From: Luteipulveratus flavus
GTDB lineage: Bacteria; Actinomycetota; Actinomycetes; Actinomycetales; Dermatophilaceae
Assembly (NCBI RefSeq): GCF_029439465.1
Contig: NZ_JAROAV010000008.1
Location: 124,001 to 188,000 of the forward strand
Direction of reading: 5' to 3'
DNA length: 64,000 nucleotides
Shown here: in pieces, positions 14,676-24,103 of the stretch
Layout: each line of letters starts with the position of its first letter
Position numbering within the stretch: the stretch's first letter is position 1
Position numbers and translations under genes: made by a program
Notes under the pieces: generated by a model
What the model saw: only the letters and a program-made list of their open reading frames with translations
Databases searched by the model: none
What the model was told of the DNA's origin: nothing

Positions 14676-14893
14676 CTGTGCGCTGCCCCGCGGTTCTTGC
14701 CCTGCCTCACCGGGCCAATCTGCGAGCGGCAGAGCCCCCCGCAACCTGCTGTGCACTGCCCCGCGGTTCTTGCACTGCCTCACCGGGCCAATCTGCGAGC
14801 GGCAGAGCCCCCCGCAACCTGCTGTGCACTGCCCCGCGGTTCTTGCACTGCCTCACCGGGCCAATCTGCGAGCGGCAGAGCCCCCGCAACCTG
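14676..14893. repeat. Three tandem 73-bp repeats (minisatellite)
   Basis: Units begin at 14676, 14749 and 14822 with CTGTGC[GA]CTGCCCCGCGGTTC. They are nearly identical; the third is one base shorter. A period of 73 is not a multiple of three and all frames stay open by base bias alone, so this is not a coding repeat. Together with the elements below it fills the 538-bp gap between the XRE gene and the racemase gene. No gene is seen in this gap. Confidence 0.92.
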
Positions 14894-15058
14894 CTGTGCG
14901 CTGCCCCACCGTTTGCACTGCCCCACCGTTTGCACTGCCCCACCGTTTGCACTGCCCCGCCGGGTTGCTGCCTCAGTGACGGGGCAGCGCACAGCAGCCG
15001 CCCGAGAAAACCCGTCGCGGACGACACCGTCTCCAGCCATAGGGCAGCGCACAGCAGC
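14891..15058. repeat. Dispersed inverted copies of the minisatellite head sequence
   Basis: CTGCTGTGCGCTGCCCC (14891-14907) is perfectly reversed as GGGGCAGCGCACAGCAG at 14981-14997, and with one mismatch at 15042-15058. The head of every 73-bp unit carries a near copy. The locus could therefore form alternative hairpins in DNA or RNA. Confidence 0.85.
14903..14953. repeat. Three tandem 17-bp repeats
   Basis: Perfect head-to-tail copies of GCCCCACCGTTTGCACT at 14903, 14920 and 14937, followed by a partial GCCCC. The unit is a shortened version of the 73-bp unit, sharing the GCACTGCCCC junction, so the locus probably grew by slippage. Confidence 0.92.
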
Positions 15059-17289: not shown

Positions 17290-18282
17290 GTGACCACCAC
17301 GCCCATCAAGGTTGCCGTGACCGGTGCTGCCGGCAACATCGGCTACAGCCTTCTCTTCCGCATCGCCAGCGGTGCCCTGTTCGGGCCGGAGCAGCCGGTC
17401 GAGCTGCGGCTGCTGGAGATCACCCCCGCGCTGAAGGCCCTCGAGGGCGTCGTCATGGAGCTGGACGACAGCGCGTTCCCGACCCTCGCCGGCGTCCAGA
17501 TCGGCGACGACCCGAACACCGTCTTCGACGGCGTCAACCACGCCCTCCTCGTCGGCGCGCGCCCGCGCGGTCCGGGCATGGAGCGCGGTGACCTGCTCGA
17601 GGCCAACGGTGGCATCTTCGCCCCCCAGGGCAAGGCGCTGAACGACCACGCGGCCGACGACGTCAAGGTCACGGTGACCGGCAACCCGGCCAACACCAAC
17701 GCCCTCATCGCGCAGAGCAACGCCCCCGACATCCCGGCGTCGCGCTTCTCCGCGCTCACCCGTCTGGACCACAACCGGGCGATCGCCCAGCTCGCGGCCA
17801 AGACCGGCGCGACCGTGGCGGACATCAAGAAGATGACGATCTGGGGCAACCACTCCGCCACCCAGTACCCCGACCTGTTCCACGCCGAGGTCAAGGGTCA
17901 GAACGCCGCCCAGCTGGTCAACGACCAGGAGTGGCTGGAGGGCACCTACATCCCGACCGTGGCCAAGCGCGGCGCGGCGATCATCGACGCCCGTGGCGCC
18001 TCGTCCGCCGCGTCCGCCGCGTCGGCGACCATCGACCACGCCCGCGACTGGCAGCTCGGCACCGCCGACGGCGACTGGGTCTCGATGGCCGTCCCGTCCG
18101 ACGGCTCGTACGGCGTGCCCGAGGGCCTGATCTCCTCCTTCCCGGTCACGATCTCCGGTGGCGAGTGGAGCATCGTCCAGGGCCTGGACATCGACGACTT
18201 CTCCCGCGGCAAGATCGACGCCTCGGTCAAGGAGCTCGAGGACGAGCGCGAGACGGTCAAGAAGCTCGGCCTGCTCGGCTGA
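17290..18282 (+). CDS. mdh: Malate dehydrogenase
   Basis: TCA-cycle enzyme oxidising malate to oxaloacetate with NAD. The 330-aa protein has the nucleotide loop [19 protein letters not shown], the catalytic-loop region [16 protein letters not shown] and the active-site His in [14 protein letters not shown]; it belongs to the group of cytosolic-type MDHs of about 330 aa. GTG at 17290 with AAGGGA upstream matches family length; ATG at 17263 would add nine residues. It was probably once directly convergent with DUF3017-folD, now separated by an insertion. Confidence 0.95.
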
Positions 18283-18297
18283 CGCGACGACGTACGA

Positions 18298-18331
18298 CGA
18301 AGGCCCGGTCCGCGTGCGGACCGGGCCTTCG
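18298..18331 (+). terminator. Hairpin terminator after mdh
   Basis: A perfect 15-bp stem (18298-18312 with 18317-18331) with a CGTG loop begins 15 bp past the mdh stop. It stands just outside the left 51-bp repeat and may have served both mdh and the DUF3017 gene before the insertion. Confidence 0.85.
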
Positions 18332-18343
18332 TCGTCCCTGGAG

Positions 18344-18394
18344 TCAGGGCAGCTTGACCTGCTCGAAGATGACCGCGATCGCGGCGGCGAGCGC
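18344..18394. repeat. Left copy of 51-bp direct repeat (probable attachment site)
   Basis: Identical over 51 bp to 22998-23048, same orientation. The right copy is the last 51 bp of the DUF3017 gene, beginning exactly at its stop codon; the left copy is that gene end without the rest of the gene. This is the pattern left by site-specific insertion that duplicates a core at a gene's 3' end. Confidence 0.85.
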
Positions 18395-18412
18395 CTGAGG
18401 TGCTGCAGCGTG

Positions 18413-18805
18413 CTAGAATCGGTCCCCGCCGAAGAACTTGGCCTCCAGCGCATCCGCCGTTCTCATGACCAGTTCGAAAGGCTCCTCGAACTCGTCGACA
18501 TCCAGCGTTCCGAGCGGCACAGCGTGCTTCACGCACAACATGTCCGCGTACTGCACGACTCCCCCGGCCACGTACTCGGATGCCTCGCGGAGCACGATCT
18601 GCAGGTCGACCTGTGCCGCCGAGCCGAAGGGTGATGCGATGATCGCCCAGTCCTGAGAGCTCGAAGGCATCTGCGCCCTTGAGACCATGACGACCTGGGA
18701 GCGATGGTTGTCCAGCCTGAACAACAGCTCGAGAAAAGTTCCGTCGTCGTTCTTGATCTTGTAGGTGTTCCGGATGTAGCCGGCCAGGTCTTCCCAACGT
18801 GCCAT
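18413..18805 (-). CDS. Hypothetical 130-aa protein (YbjN/secretion-chaperone-like appearance)
   Basis: Not firmly recognised. The 130-aa soluble protein begins [17 protein letters not shown], has an alternating beta-strand core ([31 protein letters not shown]) and ends with an amphipathic helix ([20 protein letters not shown]). The layout recalls YbjN/CesT-type alpha-beta proteins, but this is an impression, not a match. A clear AGGGGAG ribosome site precedes the ATG. It is divergent from the zinc-ribbon gene over a 265-bp spacer. Its lower GC content agrees with recent arrival. Confidence 0.65.
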
Positions 18806-18923
18806 GTCTTCGTCTCCCCTGTGAGCCGTGTGAGCCGTACGAGCGGGTCTCAGTGATGAGAACGAGCGCCTTGAGACGCTGCGTCCTCTCCGGTCGTGAC
18901 CTGATCCTGGCCGAGCGAGTCAC

Positions 18924-18976
18924 CGCTCGCCTGTCCCGAAATTCCACTACATCCGGTTCGGACGAACAGGCGAGCG
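18924..18976. promoter_or_regulatory. Inverted repeat in the divergent promoter region
   Basis: CGCTCGCCTGT (18924-18934) and ACAGGCGAGCG (18966-18976) are perfect 11-bp inverted arms 31 bp apart in the 265-bp space between the two divergent small genes of the island. It may be an operator or a hairpin; no -10/-35 pair could be assigned with confidence. Confidence 0.4.
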
Positions 18977-19070
18977 CGCAGTTCAAGTCCCGAGAAAGCA
19001 GGACTCCACCCAACGGCGCGACCCGCATACGGTCCCTACTGCCAAGAACCACCAGATAGAGGAGGACGTC

Positions 19071-19226
19071 ATGAACAAGTGCACGAAGTGTTACCGGCCT
19101 CTGCACGACTGCTCTGACTGCAAGGGGGGGACGTTGAAGGACTTCGGGAACTCACTCACCTGCAGCACGTGCAACACCACGGGTCTCGTCTGCTCCGAGC
19201 ACGGTGGCCACCACGGGCACCGGTGA
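19071..19226 (+). CDS. Small zinc-ribbon protein (51 aa)
   Basis: A strong ribosome site GAGGAGG (19058-19064 region) precedes ATG at 19071. The 51-residue product starts [20 protein letters not shown] and continues with [18 protein letters not shown] and a His-rich tail (GGHHGHR). It has four Cys-x2-Cys-type pairs or equivalents (C4/C7, C14/C17, C31/C34, C41 plus histidines), enough for two zinc sites as in DnaJ-type ribbons. Function unknown; it could bind DNA, RNA or a partner protein, or chaperone metal. It is divergent from the 130-aa gene, and the two may form a unit. Confidence 0.7.
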
Positions 19227-19242
19227 TCCGACCGGCGTTGCC

Positions 19243-19356
19243 ATGGTCGAGCTCATCGCGACGGTCATCGCCATCGTCCTCGGTGGCTACGCGGACCTCT
19301 GCGTACAGCACGCCGTGATCGTCGTCGTGCCGAGCGGGAGTTGTGCCGTGACGTGA
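19243..19356 (+). CDS. Possible 37-aa hydrophobic peptide
   Basis: An ATG 16 bp after the zinc-ribbon stop opens a 37-codon frame starting MVELIATVIAIVLGGYADL, with a single hydrophobic helix at residues 3-14 and a second hydrophobic run at 24-29. No convincing ribosome site is visible, so translation could depend on coupling. It may be a small membrane peptide or chance. Confidence 0.25.
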   Translation: MVELIATVIAIVLGGYADLCVQHAVIVVVPSGSCAVT

Positions 19357-19440
19357 TGGCGAGTCGGCTCGCGGCTCAACGCCAACGGCTCATCCGGCAG
19401 CAGCTGCTGCTCCGACCGGCACAACGAGCACCACCTACCC

Positions 19441-19478
19441 TCGAGGCCGGCGCTTCCGGGGAGAAGCGTCGGCCTCGA
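19441..19478 (-). terminator. Hairpin terminator after the island response regulator
   Basis: Arms TCGAGGCCGGCGCTT (19441-19455) and AAGCGTCGGCCTCGA (19464-19478) pair over 15 positions with one G-U wobble and an 8-nt loop. It is 1 bp beyond the response regulator stop and can also end transcripts from the small genes on the other strand. Confidence 0.75.
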
Positions 19479-19479
19479 G

Positions 19480-20139
19480 TCACAGGTCGAGGTGTCCGTC
19501 GCGCGTCGCCTCCCATACGCTCCCGTACGCGTTGGCGACCGGCCGGCCCAGCTGGGCGTAGCGTCCGGCGATCCGCTGGAGGTAGGTGTCCACGGTGTGC
19601 GCGGACACCGGAGGCTCCATGTGACGACCGATCGCCTTCTTGGGGATGCCGTCCGCCAGCAGACGCAGCACCGTCAACTCGCGCGGTGCTAGGTGGCTGA
19701 CCAACGACGCGTCGTGCGCCAGGGAGTCGGCGAGGTGGCTGGACGTGCCGAACTCCCCCGCGGCGACCTGGCGGATCGTTGCGGCGAGTGTGTCCACGTC
19801 ATCGGACTTCAAGATGAGGCCGCGCGCTCCGAGCCGGATCAGGCTTTGCGCCCGCGCGGGTCGCAGCTCCGCGGTGAAGAGCACGACTGGGACGCCTGCC
19901 CCCGTCAGCAGGTGCACTCGTTCCTCGGCCGGCACGTCACCTGGGACGCTGATGTCGAGCAGCACCAGATCGAGGTCTTGGACCGACGGGAGCATGTCGG
20001 CCACACACGCGGCCACCTGAACCAGGCTGATGTCGTCCGCCTGCTCGGCGAGCACGCTCATGACGCCGCGCAGCACTACAGGATGGTCGTCGATCGCGCC
20101 GACTCTGATGTTTCCCCGCGTAGAAGCGCGGTCGGGCAT
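19480..20139 (-). CDS. NarL/LuxR-type response regulator of the island
   Basis: A 219-aa regulator. The receiver domain (about 11-130) has the acidic pair in AIDDHPVV, the phosphoacceptor Asp62 in LVLLDIS and the Lys in LILKSDD. The C-terminal helix-turn-helix (LAPRELTVLRLLADGIPKKAIGRHM, AHTVDTYLQRI) resembles LuxR domains but with unusual spacing. ATG at 20139 is supported by AGGAGGT; the frame is open upstream inside the kinase gene. The start lies 64 nt inside the 3' end of the kinase gene, so the pair is cotranscribed and coupled. Confidence 0.88.
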   Translation of the reverse strand: MPDRASTRGNIRVGAIDDHPVVLRGVMSVLAEQADDISLVQVAACVADMLPSVQDLDLVLLDISVPGDVPAEERVHLLTGAGVPVVLFTAELRPARAQSLIRLGARGLILKSDDVDTLAATIRQVAAGEFGTSSHLADSLAHDASLVSHLAPRELTVLRLLADGIPKKAIGRHMEPPVSAHTVDTYLQRIAGRYAQLGRPVANAYGSVWEATRDGHLDL

Positions 20140-22397
20140 GGCGGGACCTCCTGGTAGTGACGCACGTCGTCGGGGCAGGTCGGTGAAGAAGGTGCGTCCG
20201 GTGGTGGGGCGATGATGCACTGCGTGCTATCCGCGTCGTGGACGACCTCGACGCCGAGCATCGCCCGCGCGGCGCGTCGCAGGGTCTCACTGCCAGGAAT
20301 CACGGTGACGGTGAGGCGTTCGCCTCCTGCGGCGGTCGTCGTACGGATCGTGACTGTCGATCCTGAATGAGGCGGGACGTACCCGAGGAGGGTGCCCAGC
20401 CGGTGCGCCGACGGGAGTCCCGCGTCCAGCCGCAGCTGTACACGCCACCCCCCGCTCCGTAGCCGCCACAGCGCCCTTCGCACCTCCTGGTGCACGGGGC
20501 GCCCGAGCTCGAGAGTGTCCCGCACCTCACCTTCCAGCGCCGCAGCGCGAGCCGCAACCGCAACGCCCGACAACGGCTGCGCTCCGCGAGCCACCGCATC
20601 GCACAGCGGGAGAACTTCTAGCCGCAGGTACTCCGCACGCTCACGCAGATCAGCCTCCTTCACCCGCAGCCGGGTGGTGCGGGCGCTCACGCGCAGGATC
20701 CGCTCCTCCTCGATCTCCGCGCGTCCCTGGATGCGGTCGCAGAGAATTCGAAGGATGTACGCACACAGGATGGGTAGAGCGGGAGCGGCCAGCACCGAAG
20801 CCTGAGCCGCGATGGCGGACGGTCCACCGCCCGCCTCGCACAGCCAGAACGCCACGACCACGACGAGCGCGAGCGCGGGTGGGACCGACTCGCGCAGCGG
20901 ACGAAAGAAGATCACGGCCAGGACGAGCGGACAGAGCCCTCCTGCGAGCCAGTACAGGCCGCCGTCGGAGAAACCCGGTGGCAGCGCACTGCCATCCACC
21001 CACGCAGCAACGACTGCAGACCAGCCGGCGATGCTGGTTGGCCCCGTCAGCCGGCCTGGCCGAAGAAGCCGTGTGGCGACCGCCAACCACAGGAGGGCAC
21101 CCAGGATCGTGGCAAGGACCGGCAGTGCGGGGTCGGCGAGGAGTGGGCTCTTCCACCAGCTGAACCAGACCGCCATGGCCACGGTCGGGGTGGCGCTCAG
21201 CACGAATGCGCTGCTCAGCCCGTCGATGAAGGCCAGTCGGGTCGCCCGCGGTACCGAGTCGACCTCAGGCGACCAGGTAAGGCGGACCCTACAGCCCCGC
21301 GACGGTGACGAGACGACCTCGCAGGTGCCGCCGATGTCCCGCATTCGCTCGTTCATCGACAGCCGTACGCCGAGCCCGGCCCCGGTGTCGTCGAACCCCT
21401 CGCCGTGATCGGTGACCTCCACCGTGATCGTCGTACCCGATCGAGTTGTTGTCACCCACGCCTCGTCGACGTAGGCGTGGCGTCGCGTGTTGCTGAGCGC
21501 CTCCCGCGTCGCGGAACCGATGGCGTGGGCGACCTCCGCCGGAACCCAGGCGGGCACGCCGGTGAGTGTCACAGCCAGCCCGAGATCGCGTGCCGCGGCG
21601 CGTAACTGCGGGGCGAGCGCCACGGGGCCGGAATCCGGCACCCCCTCCAGTTCTTCACGGAAGACGGCGCACGCGCGCCGGCACAGCGCCCGGACCTCGG
21701 ACGCCGGGACGGATCCTGTGGGGAGAGTGAGCACCTTGAGCGCCTGCAGGACGTGATCGTGCACGATCCGGTCGACCTCCCTGCGCTGTGCTGTGGCTGT
21801 GCGGAGCTCGAGCTCATGTCGATGACGAGTCCGCCGATCCTGCAGCAGTGCGTCGTAGGAACGGAGGACACGGCGGATACCCTTCATCGCCCACGTGAGA
21901 GTGGCCGGGATGACCAGCAGAAAGCCCCCGTCGGTAGCCGCGACCTCTGCCGCCTTCCAGGACGGCCCGGCATTCAGAAGGCTGGCGAGCCCGTACGCGC
22001 AGGCCAGCGCCGCCGAGGCACCCATGCACTGACGACTCGGCAGGACGACCGCAAGGGCGACCACCGGGACGAGCATCCACGGGTATACCCACGATCCGCC
22101 GCTGGGCTGCTGGGCATCGGCGAGCGGGAGGAGGACGACACCGGTCGCGCCCACAGCCGTCGCGCTGCACACCATGAGCGGACCCGCTCGCTCGACCGCG
22201 AGCGCCGCGGACAGGAGGAGCGCGTCCAGGAGCAGCAGACCGACGACCCCGCGGGCCGAGTTCGTCCGAGGTAAACCCTGCTGGAGCAGCATGGCGCTGC
22301 CACTGACCGTGTTGCCGACCGTCAGGAGGATCGACAACGCTCGCACACTCAGCTCGAACGTGTCGCTCCACGACCGGCTCCGCTCCTGGAGCGCCAT
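20076..22397 (-). CDS. Sensor histidine kinase with two membrane/kinase-like modules
   Basis: A 773-aa protein, about twice the usual size. Module 1: six hydrophobic segments (about 18-180), a dimerisation helix with the likely phospho-His in DRIVHDHVLQAL (about 209-220), and a HATPase domain with N-box EALSNTRRHA (about 299-308) and DHGEGFDDTGAGLG (about 330-343). Module 2: a further five or so hydrophobic segments (about 390-550), a long coiled coil (about 555-600), and a tail resembling a kinase core but lacking a clear N-box or G-box. The second half looks like a degenerate duplicate kinase. Module 1 suggests partnership with the downstream response regulator; the signal is unknown. Confidence 0.85.
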   Translation of the reverse strand: MALQERSRSWSDTFELSVRALSILLTVGNTVSGSAMLLQQGLPRTNSARGVVGLLLLDALLLSAALAVERAGPLMVCSATAVGATGVVLLPLADAQQPSGGSWVYPWMLVPVVALAVVLPSRQCMGASAALACAYGLASLLNAGPSWKAAEVAATDGGFLLVIPATLTWAMKGIRRVLRSYDALLQDRRTRHRHELELRTATAQRREVDRIVHDHVLQALKVLTLPTGSVPASEVRALCRRACAVFREELEGVPDSGPVALAPQLRAAARDLGLAVTLTGVPAWVPAEVAHAIGSATREALSNTRRHAYVDEAWVTTTRSGTTITVEVTDHGEGFDDTGAGLGVRLSMNERMRDIGGTCEVVSSPSRGCRVRLTWSPEVDSVPRATRLAFIDGLSSAFVLSATPTVAMAVWFSWWKSPLLADPALPVLATILGALLWLAVATRLLRPGRLTGPTSIAGWSAVVAAWVDGSALPPGFSDGGLYWLAGGLCPLVLAVIFFRPLRESVPPALALVVVVAFWLCEAGGGPSAIAAQASVLAAPALPILCAYILRILCDRIQGRAEIEEERILRVSARTTRLRVKEADLRERAEYLRLEVLPLCDAVARGAQPLSGVAVAARAAALEGEVRDTLELGRPVHQEVRRALWRLRSGGWRVQLRLDAGLPSAHRLGTLLGYVPPHSGSTVTIRTTTAAGGERLTVTVIPGSETLRRAARAMLGVEVVHDADSTQCIIAPPPDAPSSPTCPDDVRHYQEVPPCPTALLRGETSESARSTTIL

Positions 22398-22466
22398 GGG
22401 CCCGATGGTAAGAAGCGGCCACCCGCGACACCGGACTTCTTACGCGCCGGCCGCCGCAGGGCAAGA

Positions 22467-22919
22467 TCACTCCTCACTCATCGGGCTCGGCAGCCCGCCG
22501 GTCAGTCCGAGCGGCCGCGCCTCGCCCAGAACCAGAGCGAAGGAGGTGGTCCCGGACATGCTCACCCTGATCTCCCGCCGAAGCGCCTGGACCACATCAA
22601 GGTCGAGCGGCACCGCCCTACCGAACGGCACGGACTGCGACCAGAACTTTCATCCGCCGGCGAAGACCTCCACGGTTTGCGGTGCGCGTAGGGTCGTCGG
22701 ACTCGTTGTGGAGAGCCGGGGTGGAGCGCAACCGCCGGTAGTTCTTACCGAGTGATAGGCCATCATTTCGTCGAGGATGTCGAAGGAGTCGCCCGGGGCG
22801 CACCGCCTTGAACGCCAGCGACCGTCCCCCTGATCCCGGCCAAGCCAGACCCGACCACTCGCCTCCGTGCCGACCAGCATCTCGAGGACGTACGTGATCC
22901 CCGGCGCACGTTCCGTCAT
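22467..22919 (-). pseudogene. Probable decayed gene of unknown function
   Basis: An ATG at 22919 opens a frame with plausible coding character (LEMLVGTEASGRVWLGRDQG, GDSFDILDEMMAYH) that stops with TGA at 22650. Beyond that stop the same frame continues for 60 codons with good composition (KFWSQSVPFGRAVPLDLDVV, then LVLGEARPLGLTGGLPSP) to a TGA at 22467. A second frame in the middle also looks protein-like, so a frameshift pair plus a nonsense change is likely. The family is not recognised. It is upstream of the kinase on the same strand. The rest of 22398-22997 shows nothing clear. Confidence 0.35.
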
Positions 22920-22997
22920 CTACAGGAAGTCGGGTCGGCCGCCTCAAGTGTCACGTCCGGTGACGTCGGGTCGGCGAGGCGAGTGATCAGGCCTCGA

Positions 22998-23048
22998 TCA
23001 GGGCAGCTTGACCTGCTCGAAGATGACCGCGATCGCGGCGGCGAGCGC
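22998..23048. repeat. Right copy of 51-bp direct repeat (probable attachment site)
   Basis: Same 51 bases as 18344-18394. It encodes the last residues of DUF3017 ([14 protein letters not shown]) and the stop codon, so insertion at this point leaves the gene intact. Confidence 0.85.
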
Positions 23049-23261
23049 GACGTACATCACGGCGTCCAGGAACCGCGACCGGACGGCGACGCCGGCGCAC
23101 AGCGAGCCCGGTAGCACCAGTCTGGCCAGCGCGGCGAGGACGAGGACGGCGGCCAGGAGGTAGCCGCCGGTGCGCAGCGGACCGACCACCATGACCGTCA
23201 CGGCCACAGCACAGCCGCTCGCCAGGAACCACCAGACCGGCCCGAGCCGGCTGGGGATCAC
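22998..23261 (-). CDS. DUF3017 membrane protein
   Basis: An 87-aa integral membrane protein with three predicted helices (about 8-26, 33-51 and 66-82). DUF3017 proteins are found next to folD in Actinobacteria; their role is unknown. The start is GTG at 23261, overlapping the folD stop as GTGA, so the pair is translationally coupled. Its 3' end forms the right-hand boundary of the island. Confidence 0.85.
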
Positions 23262-24103
23262 CGGGGCTGCCGCTCGGCGTTGGCCACGACGTTGGTGAGC
23301 AGCATGGCCCGCGTCATCGGGCCGACGCCGCCGGGGTTCGGGGACAAGAAGCCGGCGACCTCGGCCACGTCCTCGGCGACGTCGCCGGCGATCTTCCCGT
23401 CGACGCGCGAGACCCCGACGTCGAGCACCGCCGCGCCGGGCTTGACCATCGCCTTGGTGATCAGACCGGGGACGCCGGCCGCCGCCACGACGATGTCGGC
23501 CCGCCGGACGTGGTCGGCGAGGTCGCGGGTCCCCGTGTGGCAGAGGGTGGTCGTCGCGTTCTCCGACCTGCGGGTGAGCAGGAGGCCGAGCGGGCGACCG
23601 ACGGTGAGACCACGGCCGACGACCACGACGTCGGCGCCGGCGATCGGGACGCCGTACCGGCGCAGCAGCTCGATCGCACCGATCGGCGTGCAAGGCAGCG
23701 GCCCGTCCTCGCCGAGGACGAGCTTGCCGAGGTTGACCGGGTGCAGGCCGTCGACGTCCTTGTCCGGGTCGACCCGCGACAGCAGCGCGAACTCGTCCAG
23801 ACCCGTGGGCTGCTGGACCAGGAAGCCGGTGCACGCGGGGTCGGCGTTGAGCTCGTCGATGACCGCCTCGACCTCGGCCTGCGTGGCGGTGGCGGGCAGG
23901 TCGCGCCGGATGGAGGTGATGCCGATCGAGGCGCAGTCCTGGTGCTTCGCACCGACGTACCAGCGCGAGCCGGGGTCGTCCCCGACGAGGACGGTGCCGA
24001 GGCCGGGCGTGACGCCCCGGGCCTGGAGAGCGGCGACCCGGCGGCGCAGCTCGTCCTTGATCGTCGCCAGCGTGGCCTTACCGTCCATCAGGGTCGCAGT
24101 CAC
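23258..24103 (-). CDS. folD: Bifunctional methylenetetrahydrofolate dehydrogenase / methenyltetrahydrofolate cyclohydrolase
   Basis: Interconverts 5,10-methylene- and 10-formyl-tetrahydrofolate, feeding the formyl steps of purN and purH nearby. The 281-aa sequence has the cyclohydrolase Tyr/Lys in [26 protein letters not shown], the [15 protein letters not shown] motif and the NADP fold [17 protein letters not shown]. It ends with the conserved [20 protein letters not shown] start at 24103; divergent from an acetyltransferase gene. Confidence 0.96.

Follow-up and report, generated by a model that had tools for sequence, protein, structure and literature searches.

Several described kinds of mobile element resemble the locus reported here, a 4.6-kb segment at the 3′ end of the DUF3017 gene of Luteipulveratus flavus. 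Cis-mobilizable elements (CIMEs) consist of attL and attR sites around an element whose integrase was lost or never present (PMC5704250), Salmonella genomic island 1 (SGI1) has the 3′ end of trmE as its target (PMC8409611), and the 5′ end of dusA is the target of islands that carry their own integrases (PMC4482086). Actinomycete integrative and conjugative elements (AICEs) have direct repeats in which a gene's 3′ end is duplicated (attL is 81 bp in one Frankia element), usually use tRNA genes as targets, and carry int, xis and transfer/replication genes (PMC3218068). We analysed a 64-kb stretch of NZ_JAROAV010000008.1 (the window; coordinates are window positions unless another locus is named), which lies within contig 56 of a 57-contig draft genome of 4.15 Mb. 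With moderate confidence, we favour the reading that the segment is a small integrase-less genomic island of the CIME type, with attL- and attR-like ends and an enzyme that was lost or acted in trans.

The 51-bp repeat and the empty site

The segment is bounded by a perfect 51-bp direct repeat (18344-18394 and 22998-23048, no mismatches, 4654 bp from start to start), as an earlier note on this DNA had described. This is far above the chance expectation, in which the longest exact repeats were 16-18 bp (20 first-order Markov sequences of 64 kb, simulated with the dinucleotide statistics of the window). A 30-base piece of the 51-mer, with up to three mismatches, occurred at exactly two places in the genome, both of them the repeat copies. 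The repeat opens with the DUF3017 stop codon (TCA on the forward strand). As the note had proposed, one copy, the inner one, serves the intact gene (PF11222, E = 1.6e-10) as its functional 3′ end; the outer copy is a detached 3′ end. In elements that restore the 3′ end of a target gene, the repeat identity lies inside the coding sequence; the repeat here starts at the stop codon and likewise lies within the coding sequence. The target is protein-coding, and no tRNA was found in the window.

Two congeners, G001 and G002, were compared. G002 has an empty site, with one copy of the 51-mer and one DUF3017 end; the distance from the matched end of mdh to that of DUF3017 is about 105 bp. The left flank of the outer copy matched the mdh side of G002 at 18 of 30 bases (best of 8 offsets), compared with 10 of 30 for the island-internal flank of the inner copy. 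On the gene side, the flank of the inner copy matched at 24 of 30 bases and the island-internal flank of the outer copy at 8 of 30. This pattern is the layout expected if 4.6 kb entered at a single 51-mer. At the G001 junction, where the DUF3017 end likewise occurs once, the gap measures 1.4 kb and holds a different open reading frame (ORF); the repeat is not present there. The uninterrupted junction with one 51-mer that the earlier note had proposed to look for in relatives is therefore present in G002, and neither congener shows the DUF3017 end twice, the observation that would have told against acquisition.

Two cargo genes, a histidine kinase and orf130, were found in neither congener, so the segment was gained. 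Counting the source genome, the kinase had matches in 2 of 186 family genomes (E ≤ 1e-40) and orf130 in 4 of 186 (E ≤ 1e-6), so the cargo is not ancestral at this place. These two genes represent the cargo in the rarity argument. Composition differs as well. The G+C content is 0.61-0.66 at the island ends, compared to 0.69-0.70 left of the island and 0.73 right of it, and G+C at third codon positions is 0.73-0.87 in island ORFs (a 109-aa frame at 0.60 left out; the 89-aa ORF at the right end has 0.73) versus 0.93-0.96 in the flanking host genes. As judged from these sequence comparisons, the 4.6-kb segment is an acquired one that entered at a single 51-mer at the DUF3017 3′ end, and the empty site in G002 bears out the proposal of an island whose 51-bp duplication keeps the gene whole. 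The locus has the following features:

17290..18282, forward strand: mdh, malate dehydrogenase (host, left flank; PF02866/PF00056)
18294..18335, no strand: strong hairpin at the host mdh/DUF3017 junction, probable bidirectional terminator (inverted repeat I2; DNA fold -27 kcal/mol, z -8.3)
18344..18394, no strand: outer 51-bp repeat copy, attL-like (exact repeat; left flank compared with the G002 empty site)
18413..18805, reverse strand: orf130, 130 aa, predicted CesT/SigE-like fold (AlphaFold2 and PDB match)
19071..19226, forward strand: 51-aa Cys-rich ORF, zinc-ribbon-like (weak zinc-finger-like hit, E = 0.047, below the cut-off)
19480..20139, reverse strand: NarL-type response regulator (PF00072 and PF00196; start codon read from sequence)
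20076..22397, reverse strand: 773-aa membrane histidine kinase (PF02518, E = 8.6e-8; MacS-like NF047322 far under the cut-off)
22398..22997, no strand: island right end with no credible gene (ORFs of 89 and 109 aa; six-frame translations, Pfam)
22998..23048, no strand: inner 51-bp repeat copy, attR-like, live DUF3017 3′ end (exact repeat)
22998..23261, reverse strand: DUF3017 gene (host), intact (PF11222; start codon read from sequence)
23258..24103, reverse strand: folD (host; PF02882/PF00763)

The outer repeat copy begins 8 bp past the strong hairpin 3′ of mdh. A sequence like this hairpin lies 3′ of DUF3017 in G002, and the hairpin was not among the results of a consensus terminator scan. 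It is probably a bidirectional terminator that is now stranded by the outer copy. In the mechanism we envisage, a DNA circle with the cargo and an attP-like stretch of 51 bp matching the DUF3017 3′ end would have recombined with the single chromosomal copy (attB-like). The product would be two hybrid copies (attL- and attR-like), with the gene end rebuilt and parted from its former terminator. The enzyme, probably a tyrosine recombinase, would have been lost by deletion or would have acted from another element.

We considered whether the segment could have been stitched in at a shared k-mer during assembly. The genome is a draft in 57 contigs and 51 is a usable assembly k-mer length, which would fit such an artefact. 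However, the sequence at each island junction is unlike that of the host flanks, which requires reads that connect the 51-mer with island sequence, and a locus in another genus (G014, described below) has the same layout with a 103-bp repeat that contains a mismatch and is thus not a k-mer length. We judge an artefact to be very unlikely.

Cargo genes and relatives of orf130

Outside the source genome, the kinase had one family match at E ≤ 1e-40, in G005, and this too is paired with a regulator. There (L106, 7039-10024), the kinase match and the regulator follow an apparent map in a ribosomal-protein gene cluster (gene names read from sequence). For orf130, we found no Pfam, NCBIfam or PADLOC match at the limits used. 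Its AlphaFold2 model (predicted local distance difference test score of 90) had 1k3s, SigE, as the best PDB match (E = 4.3e-4) and also matched CesT, and orf130 is predicted to have the CesT/SigE-like fold of type III secretion chaperones. Given the resemblance of the model to these chaperones, orf130 does not look like a recombinase. In G593, a homologue of the Cys-rich ORF (62%) adjoins an orf130 homologue, so the two may travel together. The right end of about 600 bp (22398..22997) had no Pfam match up to E = 1 in six-frame translations and is possibly a remnant. The segment is not classed as a defence island, as PADLOC gave one weak partial match (the regulator, E = 0.0036) and no known anti-phage system genes.

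An orf130 homologue (43%) in G014 is located in a 752-bp insert (L104, 6687-7541). A fatty-acid desaturase gene supplies the repeat on either side, 103 bp of its 3′ end in copies that are 99% identical. The outer copy adjoins a hairpin-like sequence, and the similarity runs into a second, diverged one, giving 156 bp at 89%. An insert of only 752 bp is too small to hold an integrase as well as the orf130 homologue. Counting the source locus, repeats of the neighbouring gene's 3′ end were detected at 2 of 9 orf130 loci (partial hits in G432 and G323 left out; L141 had only 2.9 kb on the left).

Background scans for direct repeats covered 486 kb of the source genome (exact, at least 24 bp), 1.25 Mb of loci (at least 40 bp; most of the former included) and 415 kb (at least 34 bp). 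In the 486 kb, the other exact repeats spaced 300-30000 bp apart were the halves (32 and 30 bp) of a single palindromic repeat and one 26-bp pair, and nothing else. Besides the 26-bp pair and a 36-bp pair, the scans recovered duplications in G432 (tandem) and G014 (large) and three palindrome-containing pairs, each enclosing one ORF. The duplications and the palindrome-containing pairs were examined, and no further isolated insert bounded by a protein-gene 3′ end was among them.

The metH repeat of G432 (L111 with L164) was considered as a third case and dropped, since it is the tandem duplication. The repeated sequence beside metH (name read from sequence) comprises part of a neighbour gene, a diverged gene pair and some 160 bp from the 3′ end of metH. 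Such a history is therefore real, and the DUF3017 locus could in principle derive from tandem duplication of a segment ending in DUF3017 and loss of one cargo copy. The spacing of only 8 bp between the outer copy and the host hairpin, the single place of the kinase in the genome and the lack of cargo remnants left of 18344 on reading the sequence make this extremely unlikely.

The large duplication in G014 consists of two identical copies of 2882 bp at a distance of 7.8 kb (L143, 2232 and 10075). The palindrome-containing direct repeats are 55-63 bp, nearly identical and about 1.05-1.07 kb apart (window 50719-50781/51772-51834; L163, 14835/15905; L159, 1681/2746). The enclosed ORF encodes a DUF559 protein (PF04480) in the window and a similar-looking one in L163, and had no Pfam match in L159. 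The repeat is a different one at each site, suggesting a repeat-associated nuclease unit; our literature search on REP (repetitive extragenic palindromic) sequences and Vsr found nothing. The window also has a tandem repeat with a period of 73 bp at about 14702-15000, with exact 51-mers at that spacing.

The mover and DUF3017 as a target

We surveyed the mdh-DUF3017 gap in genomes present in both lists of matches (121 mdh and 121 DUF3017 rows), leaving out G093, where one of the two DUF3017 matches lies on the mdh strand, upstream of that gene. Of the 121, six were dropped, three with the genes on different contigs and three with them on the same strand. In the remaining 115 family genomes among the matches listed, mdh and DUF3017 are convergent on one contig, with gaps of <400 bp in 78, 400-2000 bp in 28 and >2 kb in 9 (source genome included). 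A uniformly close spacing of the two genes is thus not supported. Eighteen other occupied junctions were tested, including all 8 other gaps of >2 kb among the 115 listed, as well as G006 and G020 from outside the 115. At none of the 18 did the DUF3017 3′ end of that genome recur in the gap; the best matches were 20 bp in G006, within a tandem repeat beside the stop codon, and 22 bp at 91% in G178. Although the gap is often filled, the genes in it are varied and come with no 3′-end copy, and a role of DUF3017 as a recurrent hot spot was therefore rejected. The junction tolerates insertions, but the 51-bp layout was seen here alone. The description of the site as unusual stands in part. Protein-gene 3′ ends are documented targets (PMC8409611), but DUF3017 itself is not a shared one, and no mention of it was found in the literature searched.

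In G134, from another genus, a PF00589 fragment is located in a 9.6-kb stretch between DUF3017 and mdh (L035, 7089-7739). No DUF3017 3′-end copy above 16-bp matches was found there.

The lack of recurrence weighs against a CIME-type island, and a number of other results do so too. No recombinase, in line with the earlier note, and no transfer gene was recognised in the island ORFs or the right-end frames; between 18395 and 19480, the search for a recombinase covered the ORFs. The genome encodes four PF00589 proteins and one PF00239 resolvase, none tied to the island site, and no PF07508 proteins. The 30-base search revealed no further copy of the 51-mer in the genome, and 51-mer matches in phages and plasmids were weak and scattered (best E = 0.03 and 0.07, respectively, among the matches listed). 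A degenerate 51-mer pattern hit 5 viral-contig stretches, which were judged by record title to be chance, and plasmid and phage searches with island DNA gave no match. Each congener departs from the 51-mer at 10 of 51 positions; a dedicated element would accordingly have a very narrow host range, and the DUF3017 3′ end would be a poorly conserved target. Finally, 7 of the 9 orf130 loci are without such repeats, and the G014 case came to light via orf130 of the first.

A degraded integrase at the right end was considered and dropped, as the six frames of 22380-22998 had no Pfam match up to E = 1. One of the recombinase-family proteins of the genome is encoded on a 4.6-kb contig, so that its surroundings are not visible. 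In genome contigs, the degenerate pattern gave 31 stretches, also judged by record title to be chance. We found no match of orf130 in plasmids, phages or viral contigs, and viral-contig scans with orf130, an orf130 alignment, folD and mdh yielded no relatives. The kinase had domain matches alone in plasmids (31-38%, 5 plasmids), and its scan of genome contigs found no relative. In these sets there was thus no intact element related to the segment that would point to descent from an ICE (integrative and conjugative element) or an IME.

Several of these results would also be expected without a site-specific enzyme, if RecA or end joining had integrated a circle or fragment with a chance 51 bp of DUF3017 (a Campbell-type single crossover, or illegitimate insertion with duplication). 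No recombinase was found in the island, the site is not conserved (10 of 51 differences per congener), and there was no recurrence in the 18 tested junctions. The G014 similarity, which runs on into a diverged terminator, is what donor DNA from a relative might give. However, the repeat edge falls exactly at the stop codon, which we estimate to be one of about 110 placements that spare both neighbours, and 51 bp of homology is short for efficient RecA exchange. Our literature search on illegitimate insertion found nothing. We regard this route as unlikely, though by no means negligible.

Host sequence is directly duplicated on either side of the insert, as it would be after transposon-like insertion with a 51-bp target-site duplication. 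Known target-site duplications are far shorter than this. The island ORFs include no transposase, and no inverted repeat joining the island ends was found among the 25 listed of 34 pairs, so the segment does not have the hallmarks of a transposon and we consider such an origin highly unlikely.

The G014 locus, as a second case of this layout, counts in favour of the CIME-type reading and raises a more specific version of it. Tiny recombinase-free cargo modules, marked by the CesT-fold orf130, could be moved by a recombinase acting in trans, target the 3′ ends of unrelated protein genes (DUF3017 and the fatty-acid desaturase gene of G014), and leave restoring duplications of 51-103 bp. Two loci, the second of which was reached through the first, associate orf130 with repeats, which is suggestive only; we hold the module model to be improbable.

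Comparison with known elements

The recombinase-free island recorded here has as its site the 3′ end of an actinobacterial gene with poor conservation, where tRNA genes are the usual targets of known integrative and conjugative elements (ICEs; PMC3218068). Should the orf130 association hold, it would point to minimal cargo units that depend on a helper for their movement, and would provide two defined att-like pairs with which to seek it. Should it fail, the segment is an ordinary decayed island.

Compared with AICEs, the segment shares direct repeats that copy a gene 3′ end, but its target is a protein gene and no int, xis or transfer/replication genes were found; an AICE or other ICE would have its own integrase and transfer genes. 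SGI1 carries its own integrase. Like the SGI1-type island at trmE and the islands at dusA, the segment has a protein gene rather than a tRNA gene as target, in the case of trmE also at the 3′ end. Those genes are recurrent targets of elements with their own integrases, whereas DUF3017 shows poor conservation and no recurrence as a target was seen. The segment resembles CIMEs in having flanking attL/attR-like repeats, one of which is the end of the target gene, and in having no recognised integration or transfer genes. It differs from them in that no integrase-bearing relative was found at the site, in the absence of a tandem partner, and in its size of only 4.6 kb. The segment thus looks like a known kind of element with some unusual details.

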